Shown: piece by piece, positions 10,900-55,004 of the stretch
Position numbering within the stretch: position 1 is the first letter of the stretch
How the letters are laid out: each line of letters starts with the position of its first letter
DNA from: Sandaracinus sp.
GTDB lineage: Bacteria > Myxococcota_A > Polyangia > Polyangiales > Houyiibacteriaceae
Length of the DNA stretch: 64,000 nt
Direction: 5' to 3'
NCBI GenBank assembly: GCA_002699025.1
Contig: PABA01000050.1
Span: forward strand, 1 to 64,000
Position numbers and translations under genes: made by a program
The notes under the pieces: generated by a model
Told to the model about the DNA's origin: nothing
The model's input: the letters and a program-made list of their open reading frames with translations, nothing else
The model's database searches: none

Positions 10900-11001
10900 G
10901 CGAGCTCGGGGCCGCCGTGCGGCTCCGAATCGCCCGAGGCCGCGCCCGCTTCCCCGACGGGTCCGGCTGGCGCTCGCGCTACCGCCGGAGCGCGCGCCCA
11001 T

Positions 11002-11315
11002 GCTCCGCTCGGGCTCGCGCTGGGGCTCGGGCTCCCGCTCGGGCTGGCGCTTGGGCTCGCGCTGGCGCTGGTACTCGGGCTGGCGTTGGTGCTGGGGCTG
11101 GCGCTGGTGCTCGCGCTCGGGCTGGCGCTGGTGCTCGCGCTCGGGCTGGCGCTGGTGCTCGGGCTGACGCTCGGGCTGGCGCTCGAGCTCGGGCTGGCGC
11201 TGGTGCTCGCGCTGACGCTCACGCTGAGGCTCCCGCTCGGGCTGGCGCTCGAGCTCGCGCTGGCGCTGGTGCTCGCGCTGGCGCTTGGGCTCGGGCCCGC
11301 GCTCGCGCTGGTCCT
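11002..11315. repeat. GCTNNN (AGCNNN) hexamer array between obg and queG
   Basis: About 300 bp made almost entirely of degenerate 6-bp units beginning GCT on the plus strand, mainly GCTCGG, GCTGGC, GCTGGT, GCTCGC and GCTGAC. It fills the convergent gap just beyond the queG stop at 11337. Read on the queG sense strand, the fixed triplet is AGC. The same pattern recurs near 23.5, 26.0 and 54.8 kb. Open reading frames across it are by-products of the repeat. Confidence 0.85.
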
Positions 11316-23528: not shown

Positions 23529-23898
23529 AGCGAGCCCGAGCGAGCTCGAGCGAGAGCCACGAGCCCAAGCCCCAGCCCCAGGCAGAGCCCGAGCGCGCAG
23601 CTCCAGCGCCAACCAGCGCCCGAGCGCGCAGCTCCAGCCCCAGCCAGAGCCCAAGCCCGCAGCTCCAGCCCCAGCCAGAGCCCGAGCCCGCAGCTCCAGC
23701 CCCAGCCGGAGCCACGAGCCCAAGCCCGCAGCCCCAACCAAGGCCACGAGCCCGAGCCCGCAGCTCCAGCCCCAGCCAGAGCCCGAGCCGGCAGCTCCAG
23801 CCCCAGCCAGAGCCACGAGCCCAAGCCCGCAGCCCCAACCAAGGCCACGAGCCCGAGCCACCAGCCCGAGCCCGAGCCCGAGCCCGAGCGAGAGCCCG
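23529..23898. repeat. AGCNNN hexamer array downstream of the MYXO-CTERM gene
   Basis: About 370 bp of degenerate hexamers with AGC every six bases on the plus strand (AGCTCC, AGCCCC, AGCCAG, AGCCCG, AGCCCA). Longer sub-repeats of GCAGCTCCAGCCCCAGCC also occur. It follows a stop codon by about 40 bp, with the AGC strand on the sense side of that gene. It is the same family as the arrays near 11.1, 26.0 and 54.8 kb. Confidence 0.85.
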
Positions 23899-25366: not shown

Positions 25367-26446
25367 TCACTCCCGCGCCAGTGTGAAGAGGGCCTGGTGG
25401 CCGCCGGGGGGGTGGAGGTCCTCGATGGGGATCTCGGCGGGGGCGGCGACGAGGTAGACGGTCCAGCGGCCGGGCTCGGGGAGGAGCTCGGCGGCGAGGA
25501 GCTGGAGGCGCACGGCGCCCGATCCGGCGACGGCCGGGGCGACGTCGACGCGCTCGAGCTCGCCGCCGGCGCGGCGGCGGAAGACGGCGGCGTGGACCGG
25601 GAAGCTCACCTCGGTCTCCGGGCGGAGGCGGAGGTCGACGATGTCGTCGGCGCGGAAGGTCGGCGTGGCCGCCGGCGCCTCGTCGGCCCCGCGGGAGCTC
25701 TGCGCGCCTCCCCGGACGGTCGCGGTGTAGCCGGGGAGCGCCGGGCCGCCGCGCGGGAGCACGACGAAGAGGACGGCGGCGGCGACGGCGAGCGTCCCCA
25801 CGAGCCCGAGCACGGCCCGGCGGCTCGACAGCGTGGTGACCTTCGAGCCCCTCTCGGCCGGAGCCGACGCTGGAGCTTCCGACCGCGCTTCCGCAGAAGC
25901 CTCCGCTCGCGCTCGGCCTGGAGCAGCGGCTCGGGCTGGGGCGGACGCTTGGGCTGGGGCGGACGCTTCGGCTGGTGCTGACGCTGACGCTTGGGCTGGT
26001 GCTGACGCTGACGCTGACGCTTGGACTGGTGCTGACGCTTGGGCTGGTGCCGACGCTTGGGCTGGTGCCGACGCTTGGGCTGGTGCTGACGCTTGGGCTG
26101 GTGCTGACGCTGACGCTGACGCTTGGGCTGGTGCTGACGCTGACGCTTGGGCTGGTGCTGACGCTTCGGCTGAAGCATCGCCCTCCGCCCCCGTCGAAGC
26201 CGCTCCGGCCCCCGCGAGGATCGCCGCCGCGAACCCCTCCTCCGCCTCTTCCCCCAGCGCCCCGAACGCCGCCTCCAACGCCTCCACGTCTTCCCCGCGC
26301 GCCTCTGCCGCTTCCCGCAGCGCCGCGCGCTCGTCCTCGCCGAGCTCCCCCGCGGCCAACGCATCCCAGCGCGCGTCGGGCTCCTCCTCGCGCCGCTCCC
26401 GCGCCGCCGCCCCGAGGGCCTCCATGAGCTCGTCGTCCTCGCTCAC
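25367..26446 (-). CDS. Putative anti-sigma factor: single-pass membrane protein with an Ala/Gln/Ser repeat linker
   Basis: A 359-aa protein whose GTG start overlaps the sigma-factor stop by 4 bp, an arrangement typical of anti-sigma genes. Residues 1-80 are acidic and helical without the zinc-binding HxxxCxxC motif. Residues about 90-195 are a low-complexity linker of PAQASA units encoded by the AGC hexamer repeat. A transmembrane helix (LGLVGTLAVAAAVLFVVL) follows at about 205-225, then a 120-residue beta-rich periplasmic domain (DLRLRPETEVSFPVHAAVF). The anti-sigma role is inferred from position and topology, not from a recognised family. It is convergent with the cysteine-rich lipoprotein gene, 7 bp away. 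Confidence 0.7.
   Translation of the reverse strand: MSEDDELMEALGAAARERREEEPDARWDALAAGELGEDERAALREAAEARGEDVEALEAAFGALGEEAEEGFAAAILAGAGAASTGAEGDASAEASAPAQASASAPAQASASASAPAQASAPAQASAPAQASAPAQASAPVQASASASAPAQASASAPAEASAPAQASAPARAAAPGRARAEASAEARSEAPASAPAERGSKVTTLSSRRAVLGLVGTLAVAAAVLFVVLPRGGPALPGYTATVRGGAQSSRGADEAPAATPTFRADDIVDLRLRPETEVSFPVHAAVFRRRAGGELERVDVAPAVAGSGAVRLQLLAAELLPEPGRWTVYLVAAPAEIPIEDLHPPGGHQALFTLARE
25905..26175. repeat. In-frame AGC hexamer array in the putative anti-sigma gene
   Basis: Plus-strand units are GCTGGT, GCTGAC, GCTTGG and GCTGGG, so AGC recurs every six bases on the coding strand, giving Ala/Ser/Gln/Pro dipeptide steps (PAQASA). The array keeps the frame of the gene at 25367-26446 and probably forms a flexible linker before its membrane helix. 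Confidence 0.85.
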
Positions 26447-27081
26447 GCTCCCACCTCCGCGCCCCGCTCGAGCTCCGCCCGCAGCGCCCGCGCCTTCTTC
26501 ATGATGCGGCTCCGCCAGGCGTGCACGGCGTCCTTCGACATGCCGAGCTCCGCGCAGACCTGCTCGGTGCTCTTCTGCTGCCGCCACACGAGATCGAAGA
26601 TCTGCGCGCCGAGCGGGCTGAGCTCCTCCTCGAGCCGCGCGAGCAGCGCCCGCAGGAGATCCCGTGCGCCGACCTCGCGCTCCACCGAGCGCGCCGCCCC
26701 GCTCCGCCGCTCGAGCGCCGCGCCCTCGGTCGGCTCGTCGGTGAAGGGGCTCCGTCGCTTGCTCCGCAGGATCGCCCCGGCCTCGCGCTCGGCCACCAGC
26801 CCGACGAAGTTCGGCAGTGAGAGGCCCTTGTCCCCGTCCCAGCGCCGGAGCACGCGCGCGTCGTCCGCGAAGAGCGCCACGAAGACCTCCTGCGTCAGGT
26901 CCCGCACCTCCTGGCGCACCTCGCGACCGGCCAGGCCCCCGCGCCGGTGGAGCGCCCGCGCGACCCGCGCCTGGATCACCGGCGTCAGCGCCGCCACGAA
27001 GACGCGCACGGCGCCCGGCTCGCGCGCGAGGGCGCCCGGCAGCGCACGCGCGGCGTCGGCGGGTCGGGGAGAGGAGGACAT
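26443..27081 (-). CDS. RNA polymerase sigma factor, sigma-70/ECF type
   Basis: A 212-aa sigma factor. Region 2 (about residues 25-110) includes EVRDLTQEVFVALFADDARVL, matching the region 2.2 core-binding helix, and GLSLPNFVGLVAEREA. Region 4 (about 150-205) has the helix-turn-helix STEQVCAELGMSKDAVHAWR that would contact the -35 element. I take the ATG at 27081 (MSSSPRPADA); longer frames upstream look non-coding. The stop overlaps the GTG of the putative anti-sigma gene. The divergent gene across a 355-bp gap encodes the exported CHAT protein, a likely target. Confidence 0.85.
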   Translation of the reverse strand: MSSSPRPADAARALPGALAREPGAVRVFVAALTPVIQARVARALHRRGGLAGREVRQEVRDLTQEVFVALFADDARVLRRWDGDKGLSLPNFVGLVAEREAGAILRSKRRSPFTDEPTEGAALERRSGAARSVEREVGARDLLRALLARLEEELSPLGAQIFDLVWRQQKSTEQVCAELGMSKDAVHAWRSRIMKKARALRAELERGAEVGA

Positions 27082-27227
27082 CCCGGCGGGCGCCAGCCTA
27101 TGGGGCTCTCCACCCGCGGGCCAGGGAACGCGCTTCGTCCCCGACGACCGCCGGGGACGCCGATACACCCCGCTCCGCTCCGCCCACGCCTGCTCCATCA
27201 CGGAGGGACTCCGACGCGAGCCCGCCG

Positions 27228-27292
27228 GAGCTGACATGGGACCGGCGCAGCCGTGCGCTCCCTCACATGGCGAGCGCTCCTCGTGTCAGCTC
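27228..27292. promoter_or_regulatory. Inverted repeat in the sigma/CHAT divergent promoter region
   Basis: Perfect 9-bp arms GAGCTGACA (27228-27236) and TGTCAGCTC (27284-27292) are separated by 47 bp in the 355-bp gap between the sigma-factor and CHAT genes. A shorter pair, GTCCCC and GGGGAC, lies at 27137-27158. The first may be a regulator site or paired promoter elements for sigma-dependent autoregulation. The rest of the gap holds no gene that I can support. Confidence 0.3.
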
Positions 27293-27436
27293 TCCACACC
27301 TCGCGTCGGAGACCCGAACGACAGGCCTTCTCCGCGTCGATCGGCGCGGCAGCAAGGCGCGCGAGAGAGACACGTGCGGGGTCGCCCCGGGGTTTCTCCT
27401 GGGGCTCGCTTCCGGTTCGCGCTATCGCGCGGATCG

Positions 27437-30121
27437 ATGGGGGGTTCCATCGCACGTTTCGCCTGGATCGGAGTCGCGGTGATGGCGTGCGGAGGCAACG
27501 AGAGCGCGAGCCCGGCGCGGGAGGAGCTCCCCCTGCTCTTCGCCGGCTGCGCCGCCGTGGACGGCGACGGGCGCTGCGCGGTGGAGCCGGGCGCCTCGCT
27601 GACGCTCTGGGTGCCGGGGCGCGGCGCGGCGGAGCTCCTCGCGGGTACGACCGCGCTGGAGGTCACGCCGCACGAGACGGGCGGCGGCGAGACGGGCGGT
27701 GACTCGCCCGACGACCCCGAGGACGACGCCCCCCGCGCGACGGTCCGCGCCGTGGCCGACGGGCTCCGCTTCACGCTCGCCGGGGTGGACCCGAGCTGGG
27801 GCACGCTGACCATCCGGCGGGACGACGCCGAGGGCCTGCTCCCCCTGCGCCGCGCGTCCGTGCCCGAACCGATCGTCGCCGCCCGCGCCGCGCGAGCCCG
27901 CGGCGAGCTCGACGAGGCGGAGGCGCACCTCGCGGGCTGGGCGCCGGAGGGGGCGCGGGAGCGCGGGCTCCTCGAGGGGGTGCGCGCGCGCCTCGCCTTC
28001 TCGCGGGGCGACAACGCGGCCTGCCTCCGGCACTACGCGCGCTCCATGCGGCTCTTGCAGGAGGCCGGCGCCCGCTCGGAGCTCGTGAGCGACGGCCTCG
28101 CGCGGGCCTTCGTCCTCCACCGGCGCATGGGCCGCGTCGAGGAGGCGCGGGGCGTGCTCGAGGCGCTCGCGCCGCACGTCGAGGGCGACCCGGTCGGCGC
28201 GCTCCGCCTCGCGCTCACGCTGGGCACGCTCCAGCACTCGCTCGGGGACCTCCGCAGCGCGCTCGAGACCCTGCGCCGGGCGAGCCGGGACGCCGAGCGC
28301 CTCGGCATGCTGATGGAGCGGGCCGGCGCCGACGAGATCCGCGCCGACGCGCTGCTCCGCCTCGGGCGCGTGGAGGAGGCCGACGCGCTCATGGAGGCGC
28401 TCGCCGAGCCCATGCGCGACGCGGCCCCCTGCACGCGCGCGACCTGGTACGCGAACCTCGGCCACCAGCGGATGCTCGGCGAGGACGACCCGGCGCGACT
28501 CCGCTCGGCCCTCGCGCCCCTCGAGCGGGCGCGCGACCTCTTCGCCGACGCCTGCCCGCGGCCGGCCTCGTTGGCGAACGCCTGGGCGAACCTGGCCGAC
28601 GCGGCGCTCCGGCTCGGGGACGAGGAGACAGCGCGGGAGGCGGTGGAGGCCGGGAAGGCCCTCGAGGCGCCGGACGCGACGGTGCGCGCCTGGCTCCTCG
28701 CGCTGGACGCGGAGCTCGCGCTCGAGGCCGGCGCCCACGAGGAGGCCCTCGCGCGCTACGCGGAGCTCGAACGGCGCGCCAGCGCGGCGGGCTGGACGCG
28801 GGAGGTGTGGCGGGGCGCCCTCGGGCGGGGCCGCGCGCTCGCCGAGCTGGAGCGCGGGGACGCGGCGCGCGAGGCCTTCGACGCGGCGGAGGCGGCCCTC
28901 GATCGGCTCTACCGGCGGCTGCCCCTCGACGGCGCCCAGGGGCGCGCCCTCGCCCGACACGAGGCGAGCGCGCGCGAGCGCGTGCGGCTCGCCCTCGCCG
29001 CGGGCGACGTCGAGGCGGCCTTCCGCGTCGCGCGCCACGCCCGCGCCCGCCGGCTCGGCGCCGCCCATCGCGCCGCCCGCTTCGGCCGGGCGGACGCGCG
29101 GCGCCGGGCCGAGGGCGCCCTCGCCGACTACTGGGCGCGGCGCCGCACGCTCCGGGCGCAGCGCGAGGCCGCCTGGGCGGCGCCGGAGGACGCGCTCGAG
29201 GCGCGCGCCGCCGAGGCGCGGCTCCTCGAGGACGCCGCGCTCGAAGCGCTCGACCGGGCCTTCCCGCCGCTGGCGGAGGACGCGGCCCCGCCGCTCGACG
29301 AGGGCGCGCTGACGCTGGTGCTCTTCCCCCTCGACGACGCCGGCGACGCGCTCGCCGTGCTGGCGAGCCACGCGGGCGCCTTCCGCGGCGCCGTTCGCCC
29401 GGCCACGGACGCGCTCGAGGGCCTGGACGAGCCCATCGAGAGCGCCTCGTCGATCCGCGTCCTCGCGCACGGCCCGGCGGCCTCCCTCGACGTGCACCTC
29501 CTCCCCTGGCGCGGCGCCCCGCTCGGCGCGCAGAAGCCGGTGGTCTGGGCCCTGGACGCCCGCGGCGCGCCGACGCGTCAGGGCCGCGGCGCCCTCGTCG
29601 TCGGCGATCCCCGCGGCGACCTCGCCGGCGCCCGGGACGAGGCGCGGGCGGTCGCGGCGCTCCACCGGGCGCGGGGCGAGCGCGTGCGGCTGCTGCTCGG
29701 CCCGCAGGCGACGCACGGCGCGCTCCTCGACGCCCTGCCGACGGTCGCGCACCTCCACTACGCGGGGCACGGCGACGTCGAGGAGGCCGGCCTCTGGGGG
29801 AGCGGCCTGCGGCTCGCGGGCGACGAGCGGCTGACGACGGGCGACGTGCTCGCGCTGCCGGCCGCGCCGGAGAGCGTGCTGCTCTCGGGCTGCGAGACCG
29901 GTCAGCCGGCGGAGGAGCTGGCGCTCGGCCTGGCCAACGCCTTCCTCGCGACCGGGGCGCGGCGGGTGGTCGGCACGACGCGGGCGGTGGACGACGCGAC
30001 GGCCGCGAGCGTGGGCGGCGCGCTGGAGCGCGAGGCCCGCGCCCCCTGGCCCGAGCGCCTGCGCCGGCTGGTGGCCGAGCGCGGCGACGAAGTGGGGGCG
30101 TACCGGGTGTACGTGCCCTGA
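27437..30121 (+). CDS. Exported lipoprotein with TPR-like repeats and a CHAT protease domain
   Basis: An 894-aa protein. The N terminus (ARFAWIGVAVMAC) is a lipoprotein signal with the lipid-bearing Cys at about residue 18. A small beta domain lies at about 25-130, followed by TPR-like helices from about 140 to 560 (AACLRHYARSMRLLQEAG, GDLRSALETLRRA). The C-terminal CHAT domain (about 640-894) is caspase-like and keeps both catalytic residues: His778 in HYAGHGD and Cys819 in LLSGCETG. An active cysteine protease is therefore expected, with TPRs as the sensing or substrate part. Export of a CHAT protein to the envelope is unusual. It is divergent from the sigma-factor gene and 83 bp before a small lipoprotein gene. 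Confidence 0.85.
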   Translation: MGGSIARFAWIGVAVMACGGNESASPAREELPLLFAGCAAVDGDGRCAVEPGASLTLWVPGRGAAELLAGTTALEVTPHETGGGETGGDSPDDPEDDAPRATVRAVADGLRFTLAGVDPSWGTLTIRRDDAEGLLPLRRASVPEPIVAARAARARGELDEAEAHLAGWAPEGARERGLLEGVRARLAFSRGDNAACLRHYARSMRLLQEAGARSELVSDGLARAFVLHRRMGRVEEARGVLEALAPHVEGDPVGALRLALTLGTLQHSLGDLRSALETLRRASRDAERLGMLMERAGADEIRADALLRLGRVEEADALMEALAEPMRDAAPCTRATWYANLGHQRMLGEDDPARLRSALAPLERARDLFADACPRPASLANAWANLADAALRLGDEETAREAVEAGKALEAPDATVRAWLLALDAELALEAGAHEEALARYAELERRASAAGWTREVWRGALGRGRALAELERGDAAREAFDAAEAALDRLYRRLPLDGAQGRALARHEASARERVRLALAAGDVEAAFRVARHARARRLGAAHRAARFGRADARRRAEGALADYWARRRTLRAQREAAWAAPEDALEARAAEARLLEDAALEALDRAFPPLAEDAAPPLDEGALTLVLFPLDDAGDALAVLASHAGAFRGAVRPATDALEGLDEPIESASSIRVLAHGPAASLDVHLLPWRGAPLGAQKPVVWALDARGAPTRQGRGALVVGDPRGDLAGARDEARAVAALHRARGERVRLLLGPQATHGALLDALPTVAHLHYAGHGDVEEAGLWGSGLRLAGDERLTTGDVLALPAAPESVLLSGCETGQPAEELALGLANAFLATGARRVVGTTRAVDDATAASVGGALEREARAPWPERLRRLVAERGDEVGAYRVYVP

Positions 30122-30204
30122 GGCGAGAGAGGATGGCGCCGCGCGGACGGCGCCGGTGAGCGGAGAGACGGAGAGACCGCGCGGAAGCGCGAGGGGAGAC
30201 AGCG

Positions 30205-30906
30205 ATGCAGATGAAGAAGACGATGACGACGGCGCTCGTGCTCGCCGGAGCCGTGGGCTGCGCGATGCCCGTCGGCGAGGAGATCGGCCGCTCGGAGGAA
30301 GCGCTCCGGGCGCGCGAGGCGGGCTTCGTGCTCGCGGAGACCGCCGACGGAGAAGGGCGCGACTCCACGGATCGCAGCCTCAGCGCGTCGAACCAAGACG
30401 GCGAAGGGAGCGACTCGACGGATCGCACCGGCAGCGCGACGGACCTCGTCGCCCCGCCGACCGAGATCTGCTGGTGGGACACGGAGCCCCAGTACTCCTG
30501 CACCGGGGACATCCCGGACGGCCGCGAGCCCACCTGCCCGACCTGCTGCGAAGGCTGCTTCGTGAAGCCCTTCTTCGGCAGCTGGTACTACGCGCGAATC
30601 CAGGTCGGCGAAGGCCTGAGCGAGGAGATGACCAACGAGGTCGTTCCCACCCCCGACACGCTCCAGCCGCTCGTCATCCTCGGGACGAGCCCGGGAGAGC
30701 CGCCGCTGGACTACGCGAAGGTGCCCATCGATCTCGAGGCGGCGCTCACGAACGCGGGCGCCTACATCCCGGTCAGCGCAGAGCATGGCGGCGCGGAGAA
30801 CCTCTACCTCTGGTTCGTGGAGGATCTCGGGGTCGGCAAGTCCAGGCCCATCGGCCCCGTCCCCCTCATCGAGAGCGGCGGTGGCCTGGACCTGTACACG
30901 CCGTAG
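30205..30906 (+). CDS. Small predicted lipoprotein downstream of the CHAT gene
   Basis: A 233-aa protein with lipobox GAVGC (Cys19). Residues about 45-80 hold a repeated acidic segment, DGEGRDSTDRS and DGEGSDSTDRT. A cysteine cluster (CPTCCEGC, about 112-119) lies in the middle. The rest is unrecognised and beta-rich. A good ribosome-binding site (GAGGGGAGA) precedes the ATG. Same strand and short distance suggest cotranscription with the CHAT gene; it could be a partner or substrate, which is inference. It is convergent with the TonB-like gene, 7 bp away. Confidence 0.7.
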   Translation: MQMKKTMTTALVLAGAVGCAMPVGEEIGRSEEALRAREAGFVLAETADGEGRDSTDRSLSASNQDGEGSDSTDRTGSATDLVAPPTEICWWDTEPQYSCTGDIPDGREPTCPTCCEGCFVKPFFGSWYYARIQVGEGLSEEMTNEVVPTPDTLQPLVILGTSPGEPPLDYAKVPIDLEAALTNAGAYIPVSAEHGGAENLYLWFVEDLGVGKSRPIGPVPLIESGGGLDLYTP

Positions 30907-30913
30907 GCGGCGC

Positions 30914-32749
30914 TCAGCTCGGCGCGCCGGCGCGGACGCCGCGACGCCGGCCGAGGACCTCGCCGGGGCGGACGGCGGGCGGGGGCTCTTCCCCCTGGCC
31001 CTCCCCTTCGCCCTCGTGGTCGTGGTCGTGGTCGTGCTCGGCGCCGCCCTCCTGCTCGCCCTCCGTCCCCCAGGTCGGCTGCGCATCCCCCGGCACCAGG
31101 CCGCCGCGCTGGGGCCCGTCCGAGAGCGGGTCCCGGCGCTGGCGCGGGCCGCCCGGCGGGTTCGGGAGGATGTAGGGCTCGGCGTTGAAGGTCCCGCACT
31201 GGCGGCTGTTCCGGTAGAAGCTCCAGTGCATGTAGGCGCGCCCGTCGCCGCTGAGGATGCTCTCGGGCGGCGCCGGATAGGGCTGGGCGCGCATCACCGC
31301 GCTGTAGGCGCTGAAGTCGAAGGGCAGGAGGCCGCTCGTCCGCACCACGCCGATGCGGTGGATGCTGCCGTCCCGGTTGAAGATGATCTCGAGCTTCGTC
31401 CGGAGCGACTGATCGTTCATCGGGTTGCTCGAGTCGGCCGGGAGCCGCGCGATGAAGCCGTTCACGTACTGCGGGTGGATGCGCCGATGGACCGCCGCGA
31501 TGTAGGCCGCGAAGGGTGAGGCCGCGGCGTTGAGCGCCGTCTGGTTGCCGCTCCGCACGCCCGGCACGTAGTTCTCGATGGCCGCCCGGAAGCGCCGCCA
31601 ATTCCGCTGCCGTTCCCGGTGTCGCCCGCGCTGCCGGCTCAGGCGCTCCTCCACGTAGGCCTGCCGCGCCTGCTCGAGCTCCTCCTCGCCGACGATCTCC
31701 TCGAACTGGCTCCAGGAGACGCGCAGGTTCGCCCCCTCGCTGCCCGAGCCGCGCCCCCGGCCGCCGCGCGAGCGCTGCGCCGTGCGCCGACGTCCGTCGC
31801 CCTCCCGCCCGGCCCGGGCCTCGCGCCGCTCGCCGCCCCCCTCGCCGCCGCCGCTCCCCTCGGGCTGGACGCGCCGGCGGATCACGAAGGTGCCCTGCCC
31901 GTCGTCGATGGTGATCGTCTCCCACTCCGGCTCGGGCTCGCCCCCGCGCTCGGCGACGGCCTCCCGCGCCTCGCCCGTGCCGCCGCTCGAGGGCGCGCGC
32001 CGCTCGCCCTCCTCCCGCTCGTTCCCCCGGGAGCGCACGTTCGGCGGCGGCGTCTCCGAGGCCTCCCGGGGCCGGACCTCCTCGGTCTCGCTCTCGGTCG
32101 GCAGGCGCCGATCGCTGCCCTCCATCTCGCGGGTCTCGCGCGCGAGCTGCTCGTCCGCGTTGCCCTCCTCCGGCTCGAGGGTCGCCTCGACCGGGTCGCC
32201 GGCCTCCACCTGCTCGGCGTCCTGCGTGAGGCTGCGGATGCGCGCGACCGTCTCCTCCTCGACCCGGTTGTTCTCGTCGGCGAGGAAGCGCGCGTTCTCC
32301 GGCGCCTCGACCTCCGGATCCCGGCTGCGCTGCTGGACGGCGATCCGGTCGTTCGGGGGCGGTGGCGTGGCCGGGACGACCTCCTCCTCGGGCACGGGGA
32401 CGACCTCGACCTCGGGCGGCTCGGTGCGCTCCTCCGGCTCCTCGTCGTCGACGCGGCGCTCCCACTCGCGCTCCGGCGACGTCTCGGCCGGCGGACGCTC
32501 CTCGCCCTCGACCTCGTCCTCCAGGAGGCTCTCGGGCTCCTCGGCGGGCTCTTCTTCTTCCTCGAGGGGCGGGAGCGGGGGGAGCTCGAACTCGACGGGC
32601 GCAGCGTCGCCGGCCCGGGCCTCGGGCGACGACTTGGCGTCGAGCCACTTCGTCATCACGCCGAGCACGCCGTACACGGGCAGATGCACCGCCAGCGACG
32701 CCAGGAGCGCCACGACGAGAGCAGCCACGGTCGGTTCGACGCGCTTCAC
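30914..32749 (-). CDS. TonB/TolA-like energy transducer
   Basis: A 611-aa protein with a short cytoplasmic start and one membrane helix (about residues 8-30, VAALVVALLASLAVHLPVYG). A very long acidic and Pro-rich periplasmic region follows (about 45-340). The C-terminal domain has LRTKLEIIFNRDGSIHRIGV and AYSAVMRAQPYPAPP, matching the TonB/TolA C-terminal fold. Such proteins couple the proton gradient through ExbBD or TolQR to outer-membrane transport or envelope integrity. The tail holds a HDHDHDH run that may bind metal. No exbBD genes are seen in the window. Confidence 0.75.
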   Translation of the reverse strand: MKRVEPTVAALVVALLASLAVHLPVYGVLGVMTKWLDAKSSPEARAGDAAPVEFELPPLPPLEEEEEPAEEPESLLEDEVEGEERPPAETSPEREWERRVDDEEPEERTEPPEVEVVPVPEEEVVPATPPPPNDRIAVQQRSRDPEVEAPENARFLADENNRVEEETVARIRSLTQDAEQVEAGDPVEATLEPEEGNADEQLARETREMEGSDRRLPTESETEEVRPREASETPPPNVRSRGNEREEGERRAPSSGGTGEAREAVAERGGEPEPEWETITIDDGQGTFVIRRRVQPEGSGGGEGGGERREARAGREGDGRRRTAQRSRGGRGRGSGSEGANLRVSWSQFEEIVGEEELEQARQAYVEERLSRQRGRHRERQRNWRRFRAAIENYVPGVRSGNQTALNAAASPFAAYIAAVHRRIHPQYVNGFIARLPADSSNPMNDQSLRTKLEIIFNRDGSIHRIGVVRTSGLLPFDFSAYSAVMRAQPYPAPPESILSGDGRAYMHWSFYRNSRQCGTFNAEPYILPNPPGGPRQRRDPLSDGPQRGGLVPGDAQPTWGTEGEQEGGAEHDHDHDHEGEGEGQGEEPPPAVRPGEVLGRRRGVRAGAPS

Positions 32750-36339: not shown

Positions 36340-37911
36340 TCAGAAGCCCGGGTCGTCGAAGAACTCGGGGCGGGGGAGCGCGCGCCGCGGCGACGGCGGC
36401 GGCGACGCGAGCATGCGGGAACGCGGGGGTCGAGGACGAGCCCGACGCCGAGGGCGCGCGTCCTGCGGATCGCGCGCTTCGGCGCCCCGGGTCTCGGGGT
36501 CGCCTGGCGCGTCGCCCGCCGTGCCCGCGCTCGTCATGCCCGCGCCGGCCGTGCCCGCTGTGCCCCCGCCCCGCACCCCCGCGTCCCGGGTCGCGTCGCC
36601 TCGTCCGCCATCCACGGCGACCTCGGTCGGCGCGGCGGTCTGCTCGGGCCCCTCCACGCTCGTTCGAGCGTCTGGCTCGGGGGCGGCCGCGGGCGAGTCG
36701 AGCCGGGGACCAGCCGCGACGGGGGGCGGCCGCTCCGCCGCCGAGCGCTCGGCCGGCGAAGCGAGGAGCCACGCTCCGCCCGCGAGCAGACCGAGGAGCG
36801 CCAGCGCAGCGGCGGCGAGCGGCGCGCGAGGCCGGGGCGCCGCCGGCGCCGGATGGGAGGGCAGCGCCGCGCTCCGGGGACGCGCTTCCGTGGTCTGATC
36901 GGCGCGGGACGCCGGCGGGGCAAGCGGGTCCGAGGCTCGAGGCGGCCCCCACTGCGCCCAGGCCCGCTCGAGCAGGCGCGGGGGCGGCCCCTCGCCCCGG
37001 AGGTGGAGCGCTTGCTGCCGCAGCGCGGCGCTGGTCGCCGTGCGCTCGCCATACGCCGCCTCGAGCTCGCGCCCGAACTCCTCGACGGCGCTCACCAGGG
37101 CCTCACGCATCGCCCCCGCGTGCTCGAAGCGATCCTCGCGACGCGGCGCGAGGGCGCGCTCCACCACGGCCGTCAGCGCCGAGGAGAGGTCCGGCCGCCG
37201 GAGAGCGAGGGGCACGTACTCACCCCGCTCCACGCGGCGCATCACCTCGAGCGGGCCCTCGGCGGCGAAGGGGGTCTCACCGACGAGCAGCTCGTAAAGC
37301 AGCGCGCCGACGCCGAAGACGTCCGTGCGCGCGTCGAGGTGGCGTGAGGAGCGAACCTGCTCGGGCGACATGTAGTGGGGGGTCCCGACGACCATCTCGA
37401 TCGTGCCGCCCGCGACGCGGGTCGGATGGCGGGCCTGCTTTACCAGGCCGAAGTCGACGAGCCAGAGCTGACCCTGCGCGCCGAGGATCACGTTCTCCGG
37501 CTTCACGTCCCGGTGGATCAGCCCTTCCCGATGCGCCGCCGCCAACCCCGCCAGCAGCTTCGCCGTGATGTCGATCGCCTCGGGCAGGGAAGGCAGCGCG
37601 CGGAGCAGGCGCGCGCCGAGGGTCCGCCCCTCGAGGAGCTCCATCACGAGGTAGGGGCTGCCCTCGTGTGTGCCCGTGTCGAGCACCGAGACCAGGTGGG
37701 GGTGCCGGAGCCGCGCCCCGAGGAGGGCCTCACGGCGGAAGCGCTCGCGCGCGATGGCGTCGGCGTCGGGCACCAGCTTGAGCGCGACCTCGGTCCCCCG
37801 CTGGATGTGGAGAGCGCGCCAGACGACGGCCATGCCCCCCTCCCCGAGCGGGCGGAGGAGCCGGTAGCGGCCCTCGATGAGGGTCCCGGGGCGGAGCGGG
37901 GAGGCGGGCAT
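36340..37911 (-). CDS. Hanks-type Ser/Thr protein kinase, membrane-bound
   Basis: A 523-aa PknB-type kinase. The catalytic domain (about residues 14-280) has the glycine loop [11 protein letters not shown], the ATP-binding Lys in [14 protein letters not shown] with catalytic Asp135, DFGLVK and the activation-segment end [13 protein letters not shown] helical juxtamembrane region follows, then a transmembrane helix (about 355-375) and a Pro/Ala/Thr-rich extracytoplasmic tail ending PEFFDDPGF. No PASTA or other sensor domain is seen. It is a close paralogue of the kinase at 41955-43502; the two flank the decayed tail locus and its inserted island. Confidence 0.93.
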   Translation of the reverse strand: MPASPLRPGTLIEGRYRLLRPLGEGGMAVVWRALHIQRGTEVALKLVPDADAIARERFRREALLGARLRHPHLVSVLDTGTHEGSPYLVMELLEGRTLGARLLRALPSLPEAIDITAKLLAGLAAAHREGLIHRDVKPENVILGAQGQLWLVDFGLVKQARHPTRVAGGTIEMVVGTPHYMSPEQVRSSRHLDARTDVFGVGALLYELLVGETPFAAEGPLEVMRRVERGEYVPLALRRPDLSSALTAVVERALAPRREDRFEHAGAMREALVSAVEEFGRELEAAYGERTATSAALRQQALHLRGEGPPPRLLERAWAQWGPPRASDPLAPPASRADQTTEARPRSAALPSHPAPAAPRPRAPLAAAALALLGLLAGGAWLLASPAERSAAERPPPVAAGPRLDSPAAAPEPDARTSVEGPEQTAAPTEVAVDGGRGDATRDAGVRGGGTAGTAGAGMTSAGTAGDAPGDPETRGAEARDPQDARPRRRARPRPPRSRMLASPPPSPRRALPRPEFFDDPGF

Positions 37912-41954: not shown

Positions 41955-43502
41955 TCAGAAGCCGGGGTCGCCGAAGAACTCGGGGTGGGCGGTCGGCTCC
42001 TCGGTGGGCGCTTCCTCGGCGGGCGCCTCCTCGGCAGGCGCCGATCGGGTGGGAGGGGCGCGGCGAGCGCGGCGGGGGGCCGGTCGGCGGCGCTCCGCGG
42101 CGGAGTCGAGCTCGGCCTCCTCGGCCTCGGCCTCGTCCTCGGGCTCCTCGTCGCCGCGGGCGACGTGGCTCGGGGCCGCGACCTCCTCGCTCGGTGCCTC
42201 GGCCGCGGTCCGGGTCGGCGCGGGCTCTTCGGGTGCCGGCTCTTCGAGGACCGGAGCTTCGGGGGCGCGCTCCTCGGACGCAGCCGGCTCGGAGGCGGCG
42301 ACCGGTGGCGGCGGGGCTGGCTCGCCCTCGCCCGGGATGGCGAGCCACGCGGCGCCTCCAGCGAGCCCGAGGAGCGCGACGGCCGCCGCCGCGACCCGAC
42401 CGGTCCGCGCAGGCGCCGCCTCGCGCGGCGGGGGCGGATGCGAGGGGAGCGGCGGGGCAGCCCGCAGCCCGAGCCTCTCCATCGTCTCCTCCGCGAGCCG
42501 CGCCGCCGAGAAGGTCCGCGCCGAGGCCTGCTCTTCCCACTGGTTCCAGGCCCGCTCGACCAGGGCCGGGGGGCGGTCGTCGCCCCGCAGGTGCCGGAGC
42601 TGCTGGCGGAGCGAGGCGCTGGTGGCGGTGCCCTCCCCGCGCGCCTCCTCGAGATCGTCGGCGAAGCGCTCGATGGCCTCGAGCAGCGCCTCGCGCATGG
42701 CGGCGGCGTCCTCGAAGCGATCGACCCGCCGAGACGCCAGCGCCCGCCCGACGAGATCCGTCAGGGCCGGGGCGAGGTCCGGGCGGCGCGCCTCGAGCGA
42801 GACGTACTCCCCCCGATCCACGCGCCGCATGACCTCGATGGGGCTCTCGGCGGCGAAGGGGGTCTCGCCGACGAGCATCTCGTAGAGGAGCACGCCGACG
42901 CTGAACACGTCCGTGCGCGCGTCCAGGTGCCGCGAGGAGCGAACCTGCTCGGGGGACATGTAGTGGGGCGTCCCCACCACCATCTCGACGGTGCCGCCGG
43001 CGGTGCGGGTCGGGTGGAGCGCCGGCTTGACCAGCCCGAAGTCGACCAGGCGCAGGCGCCCGCGCGCGCCGAGGATGACGTTCTCGGGCTTCACGTCGCG
43101 GTGGATGAGCCCCTCGCGGTGCGCCGCCGCGAGCCCCGCGAGGAGCTGCGCGGTGATGTCGAGCGCCTCGCCGAGCGAGGGGAGCGCGTGGGTGAGGCGC
43201 TCGGCGAGCGTCACGCCCTCGAGGAGCTCCATCACGAGGTAGGGGCGCCCCCGATGCGTGCCCGTGTCGAGCACGTGGACGACGTTGCGGTGGCGGAGCC
43301 GGGCCCCGAGCATCGCCTCGCGCCGGAAGCGCTCGAGGGCGACCGGATCGGTCGTGTCGTGCACGAGCTTGAGGGCGACCTCCTTCTGGAGGTCGAGGTG
43401 CACGGCCCGCCAGACGACGGCCATGCCGCCTTCGCCGAGCCGCGAGAGCAGCCGGTAGCGGCCTTCGATGATCGTGCCGGAGCGGGGAGAGGGGCGGGGC
43501 AT
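41955..43502 (-). CDS. Hanks-type Ser/Thr protein kinase, paralogue of the kinase at 36.3 kb
   Basis: A 515-aa membrane kinase with the full motif set: [25 protein letters not shown] (catalytic Asp136), DFGLVK and [13 protein letters not shown] transmembrane helix lies near residues 365-385, followed by a Glu/Pro/Ala-rich outer tail ending PEFFGDPGF. The catalytic domain is almost the same as in the kinase at 36340-37911, and even the last nine residues match, so the pair arose by duplication. I chose ATG 43502 ([10 protein letters not shown]), by analogy with the paralogue, over a GTG at 43535. The 43503-43796 upstream region holds no gene. Confidence 0.92.
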
Positions 43503-45719: not shown

Positions 45720-45878
45720 CGGGCGAGGGAGGCTACCACGGGCGCCCCGCCTGCGAGCGCCGAGGCGAGCCGGGCTGGGCGACGGGGCCGCGGAGACGCG
45801 CGGGCGGCGCGGGGCGGGCGAATCGGGGCGGGCATCGGGCACGGGCTGGCTCCGACGCCCTGGGCGCGCCGAGGTTTC

Positions 45879-46146
45879 ACTGCGGCCCGAGAAAACACGG
45901 CGGCCCGAGACGACACTGCGGCCCGAGACGACACCGCGGCCCGAGACGACACCGCGGCCGACACGACACCGCGAGCCGAGAAGACACCGCGGACCGACAT
46001 GACACCGCGGCCCGAGACGACACCGCGGCCGACACGACACCGCGGCCCGAGAAGATGCCGCGGGCCGAGAAGATGCCGCGGCCCGAGACGACGCCGCGGC
46101 CCGAGACGACGCCGCGAGCCGAAGAGGACGCCGCGGGCCGAGAAAG
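45879..46146. repeat. About fifteen 18-bp tandem units in a divergent promoter region
   Basis: Units of the type ACCGCGGCCCGAGACGAC, mostly 18 bp with occasional 17 or 19 bp, run from 45879 to 46146. They occupy the gap between divergent genes starting at 45719 and 46197, ending about 50 bp before the latter. CCGCGG recurs in most units. With no spacers this is not a CRISPR. No gene is supported in 45720-46196. Confidence 0.85.
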
Positions 46147-49089: not shown

Positions 49090-49141
49090 GGGCGGCGGGC
49101 CGGCGCCCGCGCGTCGGGGGAGCTGGACCGGCAGCTGGCAG

Positions 49142-49206
49142 ACGGAGCTCGCAGGCGCAGCTCGCAGACGCAGCTCGCAAACGCAGCTCGCAGACGCAGC
49201 TCGCAG
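49142..49206. repeat. Five 13-bp tandem units downstream of dapD
   Basis: Five units of ACGCAGCTCGCAG with single-base changes, flanked on both sides by AGCTGGACCG. They lie in the 335-bp gap between dapD and rlmN. The period is not a multiple of three, so the array is not a coding repeat. Nothing else is recognised in the gap. Confidence 0.85.
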
Positions 49207-49424
49207 GCGTGGCGCAGAGCTGGACCGGGCGGAGCGTCCACGCGCTGGGTCGGCGGTCTCCGGGCACCGGCTCGGCGTCTTGCGCGCCCTGGCCCGGCGG
49301 CCTCGGCGCGCTCCTGCCCCATCGGCGTCGGGGGTCGACTTCGTCGGCGACCTCCCGGGGGAACGCGCGCGCCGCCATGCCCCGCGCTCGACGGCTCGCG
49401 GGCGGCGTGTCACTTCTGTGGGCC

Positions 49425-50603
<1,179 letters not shown>

Positions 50604-50670
50604 CGGCTCGCGGCCTCGAAGGAGCGGCTCGCGGTGGCCGACCAGACGTCGCCGCGGTCGAACGCCGCCG

Positions 50671-50760
50671 GGTCCAACGTCGCCGCGCCGAGCGTGACCG
50701 GGTCCAACGTCGCCGCGCCGAGCGTGACCGGGTCGAACGTCGCCGCGCCGAGCGTCGCCG
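50671..50760. repeat. Three exact-length 30-bp tandem units
   Basis: Units of 30 bp beginning GGTCCAACGTCGCCGCGCCG at 50671, 50701 and 50731 differ at only a few positions, with partial copies on both sides (50655-50670 and 50761-50820). They lie between rlmN and the vWA lipoprotein gene. The frame across them is open in more than one phase but shows no coding character. Confidence 0.9.
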
Positions 50761-50853
50761 GGTCGAACCGCCGAATGTCACCCGGTCGAACGTCACCGGG
50801 TCGAGCGGTGCCGCGTCGAGCGCCGCCGGCGCGCGGCCGCTACGCTGGGGCCC

Positions 50854-52745: not shown

Positions 52746-55004
52746 ATGGTCCTGCTCGCGCCCCTCCTCCTCACCCTCGCTGCCCTCTGGGCGGCCTGCG
52801 CCGTCGCGGCGCGGACGGGCGGCCATGAAGGCCCCCGCGGGGTCGCCGAGCGGGGCGTCCTCTTCTTCGCCCTCCTGGTCGCGCCCCCCTGGGCGCTCGG
52901 CTGGCTCGGCGCCTTCACCCCCGTCGCCCTGGCCCTCGGCAGCGCGGCGACGTCGGCGCTGACGGCCCTCGCCGCGACCGGCGGCCAGCCCGCGCGACTC
53001 CGGGCCGCGGCCCGGGACGCCGGCGCGCTCCTCGCAGCCCCCTTCCGGGGCCCGGTCGAGCTCGCGCGGCGCGGCGCCTGGCTCGGCGCGGCGGCCTGGG
53101 CTCTGACCCTGCTCGTGGCCGGCTGGGTGGCGCTGCTGACGTGGCTCGCCCCGAGCACCTCCTGGGACGGCATGTGGTACCACGACACCATGGTCGGCTT
53201 CGCGGTGCAGCACCGCGGCTTCGCCTGGGTCGACCTGCCGCAGGACGGCATGCAGGTGGTCAACGGCTACCCGCGGCTCGTCGAGTCCCTCGCGGCCTTC
53301 TTCGTGGTGCTCGGGGACGACCGCTGGATCGAGCTGCCGGCGCTCCTCTTCTGGCCCCTCCTCGGCGCCGCCCTCGCCGACCTCGCCGGCAACTTCACGG
53401 ACTGGCGCGAGGGGCGCGTCCTCTTCGCGGTGCTGATGCTCACCATGCCGGGCGTCGCCCTCGAGCTGCGCAGCACCTACGTCGACATCCCCATCGCCTT
53501 CCTGCTCGTCGTGGCGCTCGCCTCGCTCACGCGCCCCCGGCTGGGGCTGCGGGACCTCTGGATCGCCGCGCTCGCGACGGGGCTCCTGGCCGGCGCGAAG
53601 AGCACGGCGGCGGTGATCGTGCCGCTCCTCTTCGCGCTCGCGCTGGTGCGCCTTCGCCCGCTGACCCGGGAGGAGGGCCGCCGGGTGCTCGGGCCCCTTC
53701 TGGCCGGCGGCGTCCTCGTCGCGGCCTTCGCGGCGCCGCTCTACCTCCGCAACGCGCTCCGCACGGGGAACCCCTTCTGGCCGCTCACGCTCGAGTCGTC
53801 GCTCCTCGGGCTCGAGTTCGAGGGGCCCATCGAGGTGGTCGTGGCCTGGCCGCCCGTCGACGTCTGGCTGCGCGAGATGTACGGCGCGCCGATGCAGGGC
53901 ATGTATCACCCGGACGTGCGGCCCCACGGCTACGGGCACGCCCTGCCCTTTCTCCTGCCGCCGCTGCTCCTCTTCGCGCTCCCGGCGGGGCTCCGCGCGC
54001 TCGCTCGGGGCAGCCGGCGGGCGCGCGCCGGGCTGGCGCTGGCCGCGGCGACGGCGGGGCTCGTCTTGGCGACGCGAGAGGTGATGTGGTGGGGCCGCTT
54101 CGGCGCCGTGCCGGTGGCGGCCGTGCTCGCGCTCCTCGTGGGCTGGATGGCAGCGCCGCGGCACCGGCCCTGGGCGCGGCGCCTGCTCGCGCTCGCCGTC
54201 GCGGTGCACGCGGCGACGCTCGTCTGGGCCGAGCCCGGCTGGGGCTACGGCGTCGAGGAGGCGCGGCGGCTCGCGACCATGAGCCCGGCGATGCGCTCGG
54301 CCTACCGGGTGGGCGAGCTCTTCCCCGAGCCCGCGACGCTGGCGCGGCTCGAGCGCGAGGTGGGGCGCGGCGACGTGGTGGCCTTCGCGGGGAACGTCGG
54401 CTTCCTCTCGCTCGCCTGGAACCACCGGATGGACAACCGCGTGGAGCGGGTGAGGGGGAGCGGCGCCGAGCTGCTCGAGGAGCTCGAGGCGATGGACGCG
54501 CGCTGGCTGGTGACGTCGACGCGGGACTGGCGCGGGCGGGGCGTGGAGCGGGACCCGCGCTGGGAGCGAGTGGGGCTGATGGCGGTGGGGATGGTGGGGT
54601 ATGCGCGGCGGAGCGAGGGGGAGGCGCGGGGTCGGGTGGAAGCGGGAGCGGGAGCAGGAGCGGAAGCCCGAGCCGAGCCCGAAGCGGGAGCAGGAGCCCA
54701 AGCCCGAGCGGGAGCTGGAGCTGGAGCCGGAGCCGAAGCGGAAGCCGAAGCCGAGGCGGGAACAGGAGCGGGAGCCGGAGCTGGAGCTGGAGCTGGAGCT
54801 GGAGCCGAAGCCGAGGCGGGAACAGGAGCCCAAGCCTCAGCCCAAGCGGAAGCCGAAGCCGAAGCCGAGGCGGGAGCTGGAGCCCCAGCCGAAGCGGAAG
54901 CGGGAGCCCAGGCGGAAGCCGAAGCCGAAGCCGAGGCGGGAGCTGGAGCTCCGGCGGAAGCTGGAGGACGCCGCGCCGGAGACGCCGAAGGGGATCGGCC
55001 CTGA
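52746..55004 (+). CDS. Polytopic membrane protein, GT-C glycosyltransferase-like, with a repetitive C-terminal tail
   Basis: A 752-aa protein with about twelve hydrophobic segments. After the second pair, [16 protein letters not shown] (about residues 135-150) lies where GT-C enzymes such as ArnT/PMT carry acidic catalytic residues in the first outer loop, so transfer of a lipid-linked sugar is likely; acceptor and donor are unknown. A soluble domain follows the last helix (about 500-620). The final 110-120 residues are almost pure Gly/Ala/Glu encoded by the AGC hexamer array, an apparent in-frame extension. A GTG at 52740 is an alternative start. Confidence 0.7.
54640..54960. repeat. In-frame AGC hexamer array at the end of the membrane protein gene
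   Basis: About 320 bp of units such as GGAGCC, GGAGCG, GAAGCC, GAAGCG and CGAGCC, with AGC every six bases on the coding strand, encoding Gly-Ala and Glu-Ala steps. It forms the last part of the gene at 52746-55004 without breaking its frame. It is the same family as the arrays near 11.1, 23.7 and 26.0 kb. Confidence 0.85.

Follow-up and report, generated by a model that had tools for sequence, protein, structure and literature searches.

Does an exported caspase-like protease govern the release of a sigma factor in Sandaracinus? The question is raised by the first 64,000 nucleotides of contig PABA01000050.1 of Sandaracinus sp. (assembly GCA_002699025.1; this whole stretch is called the window below, and all unprefixed coordinates refer to it), in which genes for an extracytoplasmic function (ECF) type sigma factor and its putative anti-sigma factor lie divergently from genes for an exported tetratricopeptide repeat (TPR)-CHAT lipoprotein and a small lipoprotein. 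Three of these proteins, the sigma factor, an anti-sigma factor with a single transmembrane helix and the exported TPR-CHAT lipoprotein, are strongly conserved together as a module, and the position of a sigma/anti-sigma pair beside an exported caspase-like protease suggests proteolytic signalling from the cell surface to the genes, by a two-piece relative of the Myxococcus DdvA-DdvS system that is found in myxobacteria and some Acidobacteria. We give a probability of about one half to the reading that this is a split form of DdvA-type envelope signalling, in which the CHAT protein cuts the immunoglobulin-like (Ig-like) domain of the anti-sigma factor and site-2 proteolysis then frees the sigma factor.

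The four genes and their products

All four genes of the original prediction, which was made from the sequence alone, were confirmed at the coordinates it had assigned to them. They and the recognizable parts of their products are the following:

25367-26446, minus strand: anti-sigma factor, 359 amino acids, overlapping the sigma gene by 4 bp (N-terminal helical domain without a zinc motif, low-complexity linker, transmembrane helix, periplasmic Ig-like domain)
25370-25741, minus strand: predicted periplasmic Ig-like beta-sandwich of the anti-sigma factor, residues 236-359 (predicted local distance difference test score, pLDDT, mostly >85)
25760-25825, minus strand: predicted transmembrane helix of the anti-sigma factor, residues 208-229 (AlphaFold model and hydropathy)
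25929-26172, minus strand: 13.6 tandem copies of an 18-bp unit, which code for the (SAPAQA)n linker of the anti-sigma factor
26443-27081, minus strand: ECF-type sigma factor, 212 amino acids (sigma70-ECF cut-off passed; family profile match to 9isn)
27082-27436, no strand: divergent intergenic region between the sigma and CHAT genes
27437-30121, plus strand: exported TPR-CHAT lipoprotein, 894 amino acids, predicted caspase-like protease (PF12770, lipobox, AlphaFold fold)
27518-27859, plus strand: N-terminal beta domain of the CHAT protein, residues 28-141 (AlphaFold model)
27866-29260, plus strand: TPR superhelix of the CHAT protein, residues 144-608 (sequence and AlphaFold model)
29768-29770, plus strand: catalytic His778 of the CHAT domain (invariant in homologues, aligned with the DdvA His)
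29891-29893, plus strand: catalytic Cys819 of the CHAT domain (invariant in homologues, aligned with the DdvA Cys)
30205-30906, plus strand: small lipoprotein, 233 amino acids, CxxC at residues 111-114 (in the position of the subtilase-CxxC lipoprotein of other loci)

The sigma factor scores 46.5 bits against NCBIfam sigma70-ECF (TIGR02937; cut-off 42.9), and a profile of its family matches the solved ECF sigma factor 9isn over its full length (E 1.2e-9); by these two matches it has the sigma2 and sigma4 regions that characterize an ECF sigma factor. Its gene shares 4 bp (GTGA) with that of the anti-sigma factor, as had been proposed. The predicted membrane topology of the latter was also borne out: in the AlphaFold model, five helices at the N-terminus are followed by a disordered linker, one transmembrane helix and a confident Ig-like domain. 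The topology is common to the family, since exactly one transmembrane helix is predicted in 60 of 66 homologues and 63 of the 66 carry more positive charge on the N-terminal side of it, a bias that points to an N-in orientation; none of the 66 has a zinc motif (CxxC or HxxxCxxC) ahead of the helix. A fold search with the periplasmic domain returned generic Ig-like folds only (Z 8-9). The cytoplasmic linker is itself the 18-bp minisatellite, and its length is highly variable among homologues, so that tether length may differ between strains.

In a six-frame search of the genome the CHAT protein matches Pfam PF12770 with 80.5 bits (E 4.9e-22; cut-off 24), whereas hmmscan, run with its default filters, did not detect the domain in the isolated, alanine-rich protein, perhaps because of compositional bias; annotation pipelines may overlook such CHAT proteins in GC-rich genomes. 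A scan of genome contigs with this single protein as query gave no match. The AlphaFold model (pLDDT 86.7; predicted template modelling score, pTM, 0.83) shows a beta domain at the N-terminus, followed by a TPR superhelix and then a CHAT fold, and the H778/C819 pair is invariant in 60 of 60 complete homologues. The protein has an N-terminal lipobox (AVMA|C), so the earlier description of a divergently encoded, exported TPR-CHAT lipoprotein with an intact His/Cys dyad holds in each of its parts. Export was called by a lipobox rule, which identifies 28 of 51 CHAT proteins and 27 of 35 subtilases (see below) versus none of 51 sigma factors; a signal-peptide rule without the lipobox was dropped because it fires on 21 of the 51 sigma factors too. 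A PADLOC match of the CHAT protein to BovA was weak (20.5 bits) and confined to the Cys region, and was set aside.

Conservation of the module and its variable fourth member

The genome from which the window comes has exactly three CHAT (PF12770) matches and three close homologues of the sigma factor; these pair into three paralogous loci, in all of which an anti-sigma gene is also a neighbour of the sigma and CHAT genes. Among 192 genomes of the class, 70 contain a sigma homologue (E<=1e-20), and one lies within 15 kb of 37 of the 44 strong CHAT matches (>=400 bits), where random placement would give well under one. The exceptions are mostly on contigs with no detected sigma gene, some of them at contig ends, and one exception (L050) retains the adjoining anti-sigma gene. 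Thus the absence of a conserved neighbourhood in relatives, which had been named in advance as the result that would overturn the idea, is clearly not what is seen. The commonest order is sigma, anti-sigma, CHAT, all in one direction. Forty loci were annotated with profiles built in this analysis, and a scan with the sigma profile gave 25 loci, mostly with the same gene order, in Myxococcota (Pyxidicoccus caerfyrddinensis, Enhygromyxa salina and Nannocystaceae) and in Acidobacteriota (Thermoanaerobaculum and Holophagales). Pairwise distance matrices of the module proteins correlate with r 0.66-0.81 (permutation maximum 0.25), a figure to which common descent contributes. The class also has CHAT lineages that are more distant (about 740-770 amino acids; L139-L142, L143, L145 and L147); these too adjoin sigma/anti-sigma genes, and the association is therefore older than the clade studied here. 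Lower-scoring CHAT loci were considered as possible DdvA-like fusions and proved again to be separate CHAT genes, several of them beside sigma/anti-sigma pairs.

The 4-bp overlap of sigma and anti-sigma genes recurs in 23 of 45 loci, and a 4-bp overlap joins anti-sigma and CHAT genes in 11 of the 32 loci where these are codirectional. ECF sigma factors often control neighbouring genes, and here two predicted exported enzymes, the CHAT protein and in many loci a subtilase, are encoded with one; they could therefore be secreted effectors under its control, serving predation, kin interaction or envelope turnover, while an unrelated protease frees the sigma factor. We think this quite improbable, as the CHAT protein is anchored as a lipoprotein, its gene is coupled to that of the anti-sigma factor in a third of the codirectional loci, and in DdvA the anti-sigma factor itself contains a TPR-CHAT domain. 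The sigma operons, moreover, are not preceded by a motif of the ECF type: in front of 35 sigma genes, autoregulatory motifs such as GGAAC show no enrichment (1, 0 and 0 observed versus 3.5, 1.0 and 1.3 in shuffled sequences), and -10-like TAnnnT elements are enriched instead (14 versus 5.8 in shuffles), so autoregulation by the sigma factor, though possible, is not supported.

The original prediction had included the small lipoprotein in the module beside the sigma factor, the anti-sigma factor and the exported TPR-CHAT protein. The last three stand as a conserved regulatory set, but the fourth place is taken in most loci by a lipoprotein subtilase (family S8) with a C-terminal CxxC beta domain, and by a small CxxC lipoprotein in the window and some relatives. 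Pfam S8 scores above its cut-off in all seven subtilases tested, and the C-terminal domain, which is about 90-140 residues long, starts with PQPxxPxCPxC. The 233-residue protein of the window has no S8 match; a homologue of it adjoins the CHAT gene in locus L025 (E 3.5e-9). For the CxxC domain, free-standing copies have support in two loci, L054 at E 1.7e-5 and L081 at E 2.9e-9. In one alignment the CxxC of the window protein is invariant with that of the subtilase C-terminal domains, a likeness of motif and position only, as hmmsearch and hhalign comparisons of the two were not significant. By hhalign there is also no homology among the Ig-like domain of the anti-sigma factor, the N-terminal beta domain of the CHAT protein and the CxxC domain. 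A 51-bp duplication (DGEGxDSTDR...) lies within the small lipoprotein gene at 30346-30445, ahead of the CxxC region.

The subtilase furnishes the main rival to a split DdvA-type system, namely a protease cascade in which the CHAT protein and the subtilase act on each other: either one would activate its counterpart or the CHAT protein would cleave the CxxC lipoprotein, the subtilase serving in place of the CHAT protein as site-1 protease of the anti-sigma factor. In its favor, a subtilase gene lies within 6 kb in 35 of 51 sigma-plus-CHAT loci, the catalytic triad (D, H, S) is intact in 37 of 37 full-length proteins, CHAT and S8 distances correlate with r 0.79, and only seven subtilase matches occur in the genome of the window, two of which are in these modules (the paralogous loci L023 and L024). 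Yet the window and several relatives that lack the subtilase retain a CHAT protein with an intact dyad, and on a quick, provisional CHAT tree the presence of the subtilase changes 10 times, at least five of these changes being forced by well supported branches. The loci without it make the CHAT protein the more constant partner, and we regard the cascade as rather unlikely.

A possible route from the envelope to the genes

From these gene arrangements, predicted locations and catalytic residues we infer the following route for a split DdvA-type system. The single-pass anti-sigma factor, with its Ig-like periplasmic domain, would hold the ECF sigma factor at the inner membrane. The TPR-CHAT lipoprotein, facing the periplasm, would sense a ligand through its TPR superhelix and, once activated, would cleave the periplasmic domain of the anti-sigma factor as the site-1 step; an M50-family site-2 protease, genes for which are present in the genome of the window, would then cut within the membrane and release the sigma factor to act on its presumed regulon. 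The CxxC lipoprotein, in the window a protein by itself and elsewhere mostly fused to a subtilase, may be a partner as substrate, regulator or second protease.

The choice of DdvA as a model comes from fold and sequence. The best fold matches of the TPR-CHAT model are 8rot and 8rw5, both titled as the Myxococcus transmembrane anti-sigma factor DdvA (top match Z 22.8, rmsd, i.e. root-mean-square deviation, 7.2 over 605 residues); Csx29 (Z about 22) and separase (Z 21.5) follow. In sequence, too, the CHAT profile aligns with DdvA, His to His and Cys to Cys.

Several observations weigh against this route. The Z gap between DdvA and the other TPR-CHAT structures is less than 1, and these are therefore tied. 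Some sigma/anti-sigma pairs of the same clade (L120-L124) have no CHAT gene in the region fetched, so that the anti-sigma factor can exist without an adjacent CHAT protein, and in genome G003 the CHAT and sigma genes are on different contigs. The subtilase, moreover, could equally be the site-1 protease. Taken together, the sigma genes of the clade with no CHAT gene in that region (L120-L124 and L132-L134), most of which are accompanied by an anti-sigma gene, may act with a CHAT protein in trans.

Tentatively, a broader scheme may be considered as well, in which two exported proteases, the CHAT protein and the subtilisin-like one, jointly control release of the sigma factor from the membrane anti-sigma factor and share the CxxC beta domain as substrate or regulator. 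This would be a widespread, undescribed extracytoplasmic mechanism, split and catalytically intact, with DdvA as a fused form of the same pathway; we hold it to be possible though somewhat short of probable.

In M. xanthus an antiphage island is under the control of DdvS (PMC12288465), and the sigma factor of the window might have a like role, with the CHAT protein sensing infection; that Craspase, discussed below, is CRISPR-associated would be in keeping with this. Such a defensive role appears highly improbable here, as no CRISPR array was found in the window (5000-64000) and PADLOC returned only weak or generic kinase matches for the genes around the module, none of which makes a convincing defence system, though the regulon may lie elsewhere.

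Directly after the small lipoprotein gene, and convergent with it, is a gene for a 611-amino-acid protein (30914-32749) with one N-terminal transmembrane helix and a TonB/AgmX-like layout; two genes for Hanks-type protein kinases, with one transmembrane helix, lie downstream of the module (36340-37911 and 41955-43502). The window has many further minisatellites of short period, in coding as well as intergenic sequence, at 54603-55004, 10995-11312, 45851-46135, 23554-23848, 50659-50836 and 49131-49208.

If the split DdvA-type route is correct, the use of caspase-like proteases to trigger transcription from the envelope would extend in bacteria far beyond CRISPR-linked Craspase and the single case of DdvA. 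Cultured carriers of the module exist (P. caerfyrddinensis and E. salina), which makes the question genetically testable.

Comparison with known systems

The proposed route has the outline of the RseA/RseP-sigmaE and RsiW systems, in which a single-pass, N-in anti-sigma factor is degraded by presumed site-1 and then site-2 proteolysis. In those systems DegS or PrsW makes the site-1 cut; in the window module the CHAT cysteine protease presumably does. A likeness of gene content is found in ECF54, where proteins with CHAT and subtilase domains lie in the conserved context of an ECF sigma factor and proteolytic control has been proposed (PMC8999054). Judged by that published description of its context, ECF54 differs in that it has a carboxypeptidase and no anti-sigma factor, whereas the window module has one; the example member is from Geodermatophilus (Actinobacteria) (PMC8999054).

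Type III-E Craspase likewise unites a TPR-CHAT protease (Csx29), a sigma inhibitor (Csx30) and an ECF-like CASP-sigma in one locus. Csx30 is not known to be a membrane anti-sigma factor. Craspase is activated by RNA through Cas7-11 in the cytosol, whereas the window TPR-CHAT protein bears a lipobox and is predicted to be exported; the window also has no CRISPR array in 5000-64000, although no search aimed at Cas7-11 was made. In this tested switch, cleavage of the sigma inhibitor relieves inhibition (PMC10028731), and this precedent, together with DdvA as the best structural match, counters the earlier statement that no pathway of this form had been described.

DdvA is the anti-sigma factor of DdvS (PMC4374960). 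Both that system and the window module comprise an ECF sigma factor, a single-pass, N-in anti-sigma factor and a TPR-CHAT module. A structural paper of 2024 is said to describe in DdvA a periplasmic TPR-CHAT domain with an incomplete His-Cys site and a zinc-bound CHCC anti-sigma domain, and reportedly proposed autoproteolysis ahead of RseP. The differences are that the TPR-CHAT region is within the anti-sigma polypeptide in DdvA and is the product of a separate lipoprotein gene in the window, that the window anti-sigma factor has its own Ig-like periplasmic domain, that anti-sigma factors of its type lack a zinc motif before the membrane helix, where DdvA reportedly has its zinc domain, and that a subtilase/CxxC partner belongs to the module studied here. 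The unfused TPR-CHAT protein and the missing zinc motif mean that the window module is not a DdvA by membership, but it plausibly works like that system. What the present analysis adds is chiefly the breadth of the module, its intact dyad, its subtilase-CxxC partner and its link to DdvA; because of that dyad the module would be better suited than DdvA itself to asking whether a CHAT protease makes the first cut in an anti-sigma factor.
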